Origin: Polynucleobacter meluiroseus
Lineage (GTDB): Bacteria; Pseudomonadota; Gammaproteobacteria; Burkholderiales; Burkholderiaceae
DNA: 64,000 nt
Assembly: GCA_945901245.1 (NCBI GenBank)
Contig: CAMDKY010000003.1
Span: 18,911 to 82,910, forward strand
Direction of reading: 5' to 3'
In this document: piece after piece, positions 55,193-56,634 of the stretch
Layout of the letters: each line of letters begins with the position of its first letter
Numbering within the stretch: the stretch's first letter is position 1
Program-made: the position numbers and the translations under genes
The notes under the pieces: generated by a model
What the model saw: the letters and a program-made list of their open reading frames with translations, nothing else
Told to the model about the DNA's origin: nothing
Database searches by the model: none

Positions 55193-55291
55193 AAACCGGG
55201 TACCGGTTTTGATGACACTCCCCACGCCAGCATTATCTGGATCGGGTAATAGGGTCTTTCTCAGCGCCACCAATTACGGAGGGCACCCCTG
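55193..55291 (-). promoter_or_regulatory. TPP riboswitch (THI element) of thiC, aptamer plus following hairpin
   Basis: Minus strand aggggtgccc...gCTGAGAaagacccta..ACCCGATCCAGATAATGCTGGCGTGGGGA, then AAACCGG-tac-CCGGTTT. Confidence 0.95.
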
Positions 55292-55384
55292 TTTCATCCT
55301 TGCAAGCATTTAACCACGAAACGCTGACGGGTATGCTGACTCAAATCAATAATGGTTAATTCATGTGTTCTGACGTGATTCTGC

Positions 55385-56227
55385 TTAGCTAATGTTGCGT
55401 CGCAAAATAAAATCAGCCGTTACCAAGGCGGCATCTGCCGTGAATTCATCGGCCAAAATACGGGCGGCTGCTTCACCGTGGGTAACCGCTATAAAACCAG
55501 CCACTTCACCATCGCGGTTCGTAGGCAAGAGGTTGCTGGGAATTAAGAGGTCATAAATAAACAGGGATTCGGCATGAAAGCCCAGCGGCGGTGTGGGTCT
55601 GCGCATCTCCATTCGGCCAGCCGGCTGAATACCCGCTGCAATCGCCTGCGGAATACCTGCCTCTTCCCACAATTCACGGCGGGCGCAAACCCAGGGTGTT
55701 TCATCGGCGGAAATGCCCCCAGCGCTCAGGTTATCGAGCTTACCCGGGTCAATGTGTTTGTTTTCACTGCGGCGACCCAACCAGATTCGACGATCTTCGG
55801 TAAAGCCATTCATGTGACTGGCCATGCTTTTGAGACCAAAGGTCCGAAACGCAGCCCGCTCGAGCTGAAATAGGGCGTGTCCTTGCTGATCTAAAAAGGC
55901 AAATTCCTCATTTCGCCAGCCGGGTATAAATCCCCCTTCGCGCATCCGCCTGGCTAAGGCATTCCAGGTTTGACTGAGCAGGGCAGGACGCTCCCCGCTA
56001 ACGAGCAGCCGCTGCGGCTCAAGATGAATGCCAGTAATGGGACTAGCCTGAAGCGATTGCTTGATGAAGGCAAAAAAATCGCCTTGTAAATAACCGACTG
56101 TTTGACCTAATTTACTCGCAGTTGGAATGGCCAGGTAAATCGGTACATAGTCAGCAGGCACGGAGCGTGCTGTGTTCTGGAGCATTTCCTCTAGGGCTGC
56201 CAAGGTGCTGGGTGTGAGTGCATTCAT
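55385..56227 (-). CDS. NUDIX hydrolase, DUF4743-containing type
   Basis: Nudix box GGISADETPWVCARRELWEEAGI; N-terminal extension upstream. Confidence 0.9.
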   Translation of the reverse strand: MNALTPSTLAALEEMLQNTARSVPADYVPIYLAIPTASKLGQTVGYLQGDFFAFIKQSLQASPITGIHLEPQRLLVSGERPALLSQTWNALARRMREGGFIPGWRNEEFAFLDQQGHALFQLERAAFRTFGLKSMASHMNGFTEDRRIWLGRRSENKHIDPGKLDNLSAGGISADETPWVCARRELWEEAGIPQAIAAGIQPAGRMEMRRPTPPLGFHAESLFIYDLLIPSNLLPTNRDGEVAGFIAVTHGEAAARILADEFTADAALVTADFILRRNIS

Positions 56228-56462
56228 GTGACTTTAGTGTACGAGAAAATCAACTCTACTTGGTAGATAGCAGTGCCCGATAACTAAGACTACTTTCGTA
56301 TTTATCGATCACTTGATCGAATAAAAAATAACTTACAGCATGATTAAAAAATAAAAAGTCAATGGCTAAATAAAATAAAAAAGGGGAATAAAAGATTGCT
56401 TATTTTTTAAGCAAGCCAGCTCATCCTATAAAAATTCAATACTTAGGAACACTTTTAATAAT

Positions 56463-56485
56463 TTATCCACATCCGCTGTGGATAA
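56463..56485. promoter_or_regulatory. Inverted pair of consensus DnaA boxes
   Basis: TTATCCACA-tccgc-TGTGGATAA in AT-rich intergenic DNA. Confidence 0.7.
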
Positions 56486-56559
56486 CTTTAGGTGAAATAA
56501 ATTGATTGACTTTTAAAATCATTTTGGAATGCAGCAACACTCACTTTTAAATAATACGG

Positions 56560-56634
56560 TGGTCCCGCCGACAGGAATCGAACCTGTATCCCACGCTTAG
56601 GAGGCATGTGCACTATCCATTGTGCTACGGCGAG
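56560..56634 (-). tRNA. tRNA-Arg (anticodon CCT), CCA encoded
   Basis: Minus strand ctcgccgtagcacaatggatagtgcacatgcctCCTaagcgtgggatacaggttcgattcctgtcggcgggacca; acceptor CTCGCCG/CGGCGGG with one G-U. Confidence 0.95.

Follow-up and report, generated by a model that had tools for sequence, protein, structure and literature searches.

The intergenic block between a nudix gene and tRNA-Arg(CCT) in the Polynucleobacter meluiroseus DNA analyzed here (the window, a stretch of 64,000 nucleotides) raises the question of what function an inverted pair of perfect DnaA boxes has at this place. A first-pass annotation had proposed a DnaA-binding locus resembling either datA or the DARS sites of Escherichia coli. 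Its description of the pair as two perfect boxes, inverted and 5 nt apart, agreed with the sequence in letters and coordinates (Table 1).

Table 1. Features of the DnaA-box locus and its flanking genes (window coordinates)
Feature	Position	Strand	Remarks
DUF4743-NUDIX gene flanking the Fis side	55385..56227	-	Context; tctC-type gene instead in some relatives
Fis-consensus 15-mer	56398..56412		GCTTATTTTTTAAGC, 0 mismatches to GnnYAnnnnnTRnnC; 50 bp from the near DnaA box
Linker between Fis-type site and DnaA pair, 50 bp	56413..56462		Conserved; length 50 or 51 in the genus
IHF-like 13-mer in the linker, degenerate	56433..56445	+	AATTCAATACTTA, 2 mismatches to WATCAANNNNTTR
DnaA box, perfect, Fis-proximal arm	56463..56471	+	TTATCCACA; identical in 55/62 distinct genus loci
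Spacer between the inverted boxes, 5 bp	56472..56476		TCCGC; length fixed, sequence free
DnaA box, perfect, tRNA-proximal arm	56477..56485	-	TGTGGATAA; invariant in 62/62 distinct aligned loci
tRNA-Arg(CCT) flanking the module	56560..56634	-	Context, outside the element; islands intervene in several relatives

The DnaA-box pair and its conservation

Within the 1.97-Mb, 79-contig assembly, the pair is the sole perfect inverted one with a 5-bp spacer. In the genome, TTATNCACA occurs 26 times in forward and 18 times in reverse orientation, which gives an expectation of 0.0002 inverted pairs at exactly this spacing, and relaxing the search to three mismatches returned extra matches only at the level of the reversed-pattern control. 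The concern that similar pairs might abound elsewhere by chance was thus not borne out by the genome scan.

The first set of relatives comprised 60 genomes, 36 of them from Polynucleobacter, and 150 further genomes of the genus were then drawn; the pair recurred in both. Because the sets compared here and below were picked by perfect or near-perfect pairs, prevalence figures are valid for those search patterns: with at most two mismatches, TTATCCACA-N5-TGTGGATAA was carried by all 117 genus genomes that are at least 90% complete. At most of the aligned genus loci the pair is flanked by the nudix gene on one side and tRNA-Arg(CCT) on the other. Among 62 distinct loci the Fis-proximal arm was perfect in 55, read TAGTCCACA in four and TTGTCCACA in three, and the tRNA-side arm showed no change at all. 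The spacer was constant in length and occurred in 35 different sequences. The palindrome is therefore kept across related genomes, and the objection that it might not be conserved falls away.

At none of the 62 loci was a change in one arm accompanied by a compensating change in the other, unlike what an RNA stem would require. This bears on the possibility that the pair acts as RNA, be it as a factor-independent terminator for tRNA-Arg or as some other hairpin, as a perfect inverted repeat 75 bp beyond the tRNA 3' end might suggest. However, no terminator-like site was called at the pair, seven of the 62 loci alter one arm without compensation and 55 alter nothing while the loop varies freely, and the pair is intact where the tRNA lies 1-13 kb away. 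A terminator or RNA hairpin is hence scarcely credible. An intrinsic terminator of tRNA-Arg, judged by stem compensation, U-tract and linkage to the tRNA, did not emerge and is largely refuted as a candidate.

The Fis-type site and the neighbouring genes

Two further inverted repeats, at 56305-56320 and 56396-56414, are both present in the sequence. The former was absent from both of the two close relatives checked. The latter had been suspected of terminating the tRNA-Arg transcript; the hairpin exists but is better read as a conserved Fis-type site than as a terminator, as it encloses a match to the Fis consensus GnnYAnnnnnTRnnC quoted in PMC8682772. The genus alignment from the pair to this repeat is gapless except for one base in some subclades. 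The dyad symmetry of the repeat is broken in some subclades and the Fis consensus is nevertheless retained, which argues for protein binding rather than for a hairpin. At 61 genus loci the consensus occupies a fixed place, perfect in 49 and with one mismatch in 12, and its distance to the near box is always 50 or 51 bp. The chance of a perfect match, estimated from shuffled sites, was 0.0006 per position. The Fis consensus is permissive and low in specificity, and the weight lies on its fixed position across genomes, not on the match alone.

The IHF-like 13-mer that had been noted at 56495-56507 is present in the sequence but not conserved in relatives, since it sits within the approximately 75 bp between palindrome and tRNA that are missing from most of them, and this right-hand site was dropped. 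For IHF, the genus alignment has its best column at the degenerate linker 13-mer, which averages 2.16 mismatches against a median of 5.66 and is nowhere perfect.

The DnaA pair and the Fis-type site stay together when the neighbouring genes change. In four relatives (G034, G011, G157 and G063) island DNA of about 1 to 13 kb separates the tRNA from an intact module, and in six (G001, G034, G074, G090, G106 and G109) a tctC-type gene, named from its sequence alone, stands in place of nudix next to an intact module. This persistence across islands and nudix replacement speaks against both a terminator and a nudix-specific operator. A second, independent copy of the module with the same Fis distance lies 3' of efp in one Polynucleobacter subclade (G027, G032, G065 and probably G113), and the genes flanking it are convergent in G027 and G065. 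No efp-type second module was found in the genome that contains the window.

The island, tctC and efp contexts weaken the terminator reading and also the promoter reading, in which DnaA (and Fis) would control, with the pair as operator, the gene transcribed away from the pair, be it nudix or, in some relatives, tctC. E. coli DnaA does regulate promoters (PMC11317965), the module at the nudix/tRNA locus is upstream of the gene read away wherever this neighbour was identified, and the linker includes a conserved TATA-like stretch of the right polarity (CTATA at -37 to -33). Yet this stretch is lost in divergent subclades that retain both protein sites, the module remains the same after the unrelated tctC gene has replaced nudix, the efp copy has convergent neighbours in at least two genomes, and modules throughout the class adjoin unrelated genes. 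In addition, the DnaA-bound promoter sites of E. coli are mostly tandem boxes, 2-3 bp apart (PMC11317965). We consider a DnaA-controlled promoter unlikely, and a nudix-specific one was dropped because the neighbouring gene is replaceable with the module unchanged.

Several observations were made on the surroundings of the module. The tRNA-Arg(CCT) gene resembles an integration site, with islands of about 1-13 kb between tRNA and module (locus L097, 2800-16174; L098, L099 and L100); L097 and L099 also have the 3' end of the tRNA, TGGTCCCGCCGACAGG, duplicated next to the module. A plasmid search gave matches over the tRNA only. A TPP riboswitch (Rfam RF00059) lies ahead of thiC at 55202-55300 on the minus strand, so the neighbouring DUF4743-NUDIX protein may be thiamine-related. 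The efp-side modules, each a Fis-type site plus DnaA pair, are loci L288, L289, L290 and L294. Large-genome Polynucleobacter relatives have another DnaA pair with a near-Fis site, 51 bp apart, at a further locus (L094, 205-227; L095, 477-499).

Comparison with E. coli datA and DARS and with cores of other proteobacteria

Like the module, E. coli datA has DnaA boxes beside a tRNA gene. A datA-like site would titrate or inactivate DnaA and so lower the level of free DnaA or ATP-DnaA. The boxes are of high affinity and a tRNA is the neighbour, as for datA beside glyVXY, whose read-through controls datA-IHF binding (PMC10950094). However, datA, which promotes ATP hydrolysis, requires a box cluster plus an essential IHF site, whereas the module has two head-to-head boxes only, the IHF site first proposed is not conserved and islands part the tRNA from the module in several relatives. 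We therefore regard a datA-like function as quite improbable, and this half of the original proposal was given up for lack of a box cluster. The DARS-like half is well supported by the synteny across the genus, the box I/II geometry and the fixed Fis-consensus partner.

The core of E. coli DARS1, in the bioD-uvrB intergenic region, is TTATCCACT-N5-TGTGGATAA-N3-TGTGTATTA, and that of DARS2, between rppH and mutH, is TTATTCACC-N5-TGTGGATAG-N3-TGTGAAGAA. The window pair has the inverted boxes I and II, 5 bp apart, of these E. coli cores (loci L031 and L032). Both E. coli sites need a third box to be fully active; it stands 3 bp beyond box II and in its orientation. No such box III was found in the window at 2-3 bp on either side of the pair, and only two of 62 genus loci offer a candidate within two mismatches. 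Boxes I and II of DARS face each other, which allows head-to-head contact of ADP-DnaA and release of ADP (PMC8682772, PMC5742627). DARS2 depends crucially on boxes I and II and reaches full activity only with box III (PMC4585315), and the site is activated by Fis and IHF (PMC4245941).

DARS1 resembles the window pair in its intergenic location but has box III 3 bp past box II and is without a Fis consensus at the distance typical of the class. DARS2 shares with the module a Fis consensus on one side; unlike it, DARS2 has three or more boxes and the order core-IHF-Fis. Its Fis site is at +145 and IHF is at about +93 and +109, whereas Fis is at +73/74 in Polynucleobacter, and this difference counts against a DARS-like reading. 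Of the partners of DARS2, the module would thus have a putative Fis site, perfect in consensus and rigid in distance although at a distance unlike that in E. coli DARS2, and for IHF the degenerate linker site only.

GTDB was scanned for the perfect pair, and the first 79 sites among the matches listed were examined. A further DnaA box stood at exactly 3 bp in 56 of these 79 listed matches, and any other spacing was seen at most four times. The finding speaks to the idea that some other dimeric regulator binds here, its site coinciding with the DnaA box by chance. Dimeric regulators typically bind palindromes, but the arms are the exact DnaA 9-mer and no symmetric dimer predicts the third box, so that we give this explanation very little credence.

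In 93 three-box cores from outside Polynucleobacter, the perfect Fis consensus started at +86 (20 cores) or +85 (nine cores) from box I; no other offset exceeded three, nor did any in 100 shuffles. Matches to the IHF consensus with at most one mismatch peaked at +119-121 in three-box cores (46 of 95 matches). When the cores were grouped into 83 linker clusters, perfect Fis sites at +85/86 were found in 27 (other offset pairs: mean 0.22, maximum 2) and IHF sites at +119-121 in 42 (other offsets: mean 0.57, maximum 3). A separate search of 274 genomes drawn evenly from the class detected three-box cores, with two mismatches allowed, in 227, and the reversed control gave 0 in all listed genomes. 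Among 28 held-out cores from this search, Fis within one mismatch peaked at +86 (15; next 3) and IHF at +118-122. In Polynucleobacter, no IHF peak was found beyond Fis at the offset typical of the class, which counts against a DARS-like reading.

The class three-box cores contain the same pair and the same 50-51 bp from the last DnaA box to the Fis consensus as the Polynucleobacter module, but differ from it in having box III, Fis at +85/86 and often an IHF consensus at +119-121. Other Burkholderiales also have two-box cores (Achromobacter veterisilvae, L217, and L113, L125 and L126), with box III missing and Fis at +74 in these four loci and at +74/75 overall; they are few and have other gene neighbours. 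The Fis offsets of two- and three-box cores differ by 12 bp, equal to one box plus a 3-bp spacer, so the last box is 50-51 bp from Fis in both. From these data we lean towards the view that nearly all of the class, beta- and gamma-proteobacteria alike, has a rigid DnaA-recharging module, DnaA core-50/51 bp-Fis-approximately 20 bp-IHF. It would have a layout distinct from that of E. coli DARS2 and fall into two classes 12 bp (one DnaA box plus spacer) apart, Polynucleobacter having the two-box, Fis-only form, which in most of its species would be the sole site. DARS sites have so far been studied in E. coli. According to the primary DARS2 paper, its core and Fis are restricted to gamma-proteobacteria close to E. 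coli (PMC4245941), and a later review names beta- or gamma-proteobacteria (PMC5742627). No description of the module was found in the literature searched, a scope outside which most subscription papers, the original DARS paper included, fall. As a separate observation, in two other Burkholderiales genomes (G045 and G043) DARS-like cores follow one another several times within 1 kb (L086 at 2001, 2495, 2674 and 2879; L085 at 1536 and 2001).

A probable two-box DARS-like element near the terminus

The genome that contains the window encodes a DnaA that is 52% identical to the E. coli protein and keeps Leu290, Arg285 and Asp269. Arg227 of AID-1 is replaced by His, which counts against a DARS-like reading. 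Hda is encoded and scores over its family cut-off, and Fis is encoded in a dusB-fis pair. The beta-type Fis model of NCBIfam gave 118 bits against a cut-off of 122 bits, and the identification rests on this near-cut-off score taken together with Pfam HTH_8 and PDB Fis matches.

The conserved intergenic chromosomal position of DARS sites has its parallel in a module that is syntenic across the genus. In G004, a complete genome with a GC-skew flip between 1.02 and 1.05 Mb, the module is found at 0.968 Mb. The other complete genomes examined have it at approximately 0.38-0.49 of the chromosome, as measured from oriC or contig start, in constant orientation. The terminus was located by GC skew in place of dif, as an E. 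coli-like dif pattern with up to three mismatches was absent from 49 of 50 genus genomes and gave one weak match in G027. The module is thus terminus-proximal on one arm, and this constancy could be due in part to the region as a whole being syntenic. Its place is unlike that of E. coli DARS1 and DARS2 and counts against a DARS-like reading.

Taking both sides together, we think it probable, as judged from the sequences compared, that the block is a two-box DARS-like element in which an inverted high-affinity DnaA pair and a Fis-type site 50-51 bp away recharge ADP-DnaA, probably with Fis. The sites, their fixed geometry, their conservation and independence of gene context, and the genes for DnaA, Hda and Fis are observed. 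We infer from them occupancy, ADP release, stimulation by Fis and timing, which could be connected as follows. Two ADP-DnaA molecules would occupy the two boxes head to head, which would bring their AAA+ domains into contact, and ADP would be released; Fis may bend the flank and stimulate this release in growing cells. Apo-DnaA would then depart and take up ATP, providing more ATP-DnaA for the next initiation at oriC. Given its place near the terminus, the element would be replicated towards the end of the round. With box III missing, we file it as DARS-like, not as DARS; the literature search found no data on DnaA binding or nucleotide exchange in Polynucleobacter.

The data suggest that most of the class possesses DnaA-recharging sites whose Fis (and often IHF) partner is fixed, and that the two-box form suffices in this streamlined genus. 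DNAs of 90 bp would allow direct tests of what DARS minimally needs, of what box III contributes and of a link from Fis, and with it growth phase, to replication timing. Apart from the module, the genome of the window and its relatives keep another inverted pair of DnaA boxes near dnaA, with 22 bp between the boxes (G000:C24:8689-8728), presumably at oriC.
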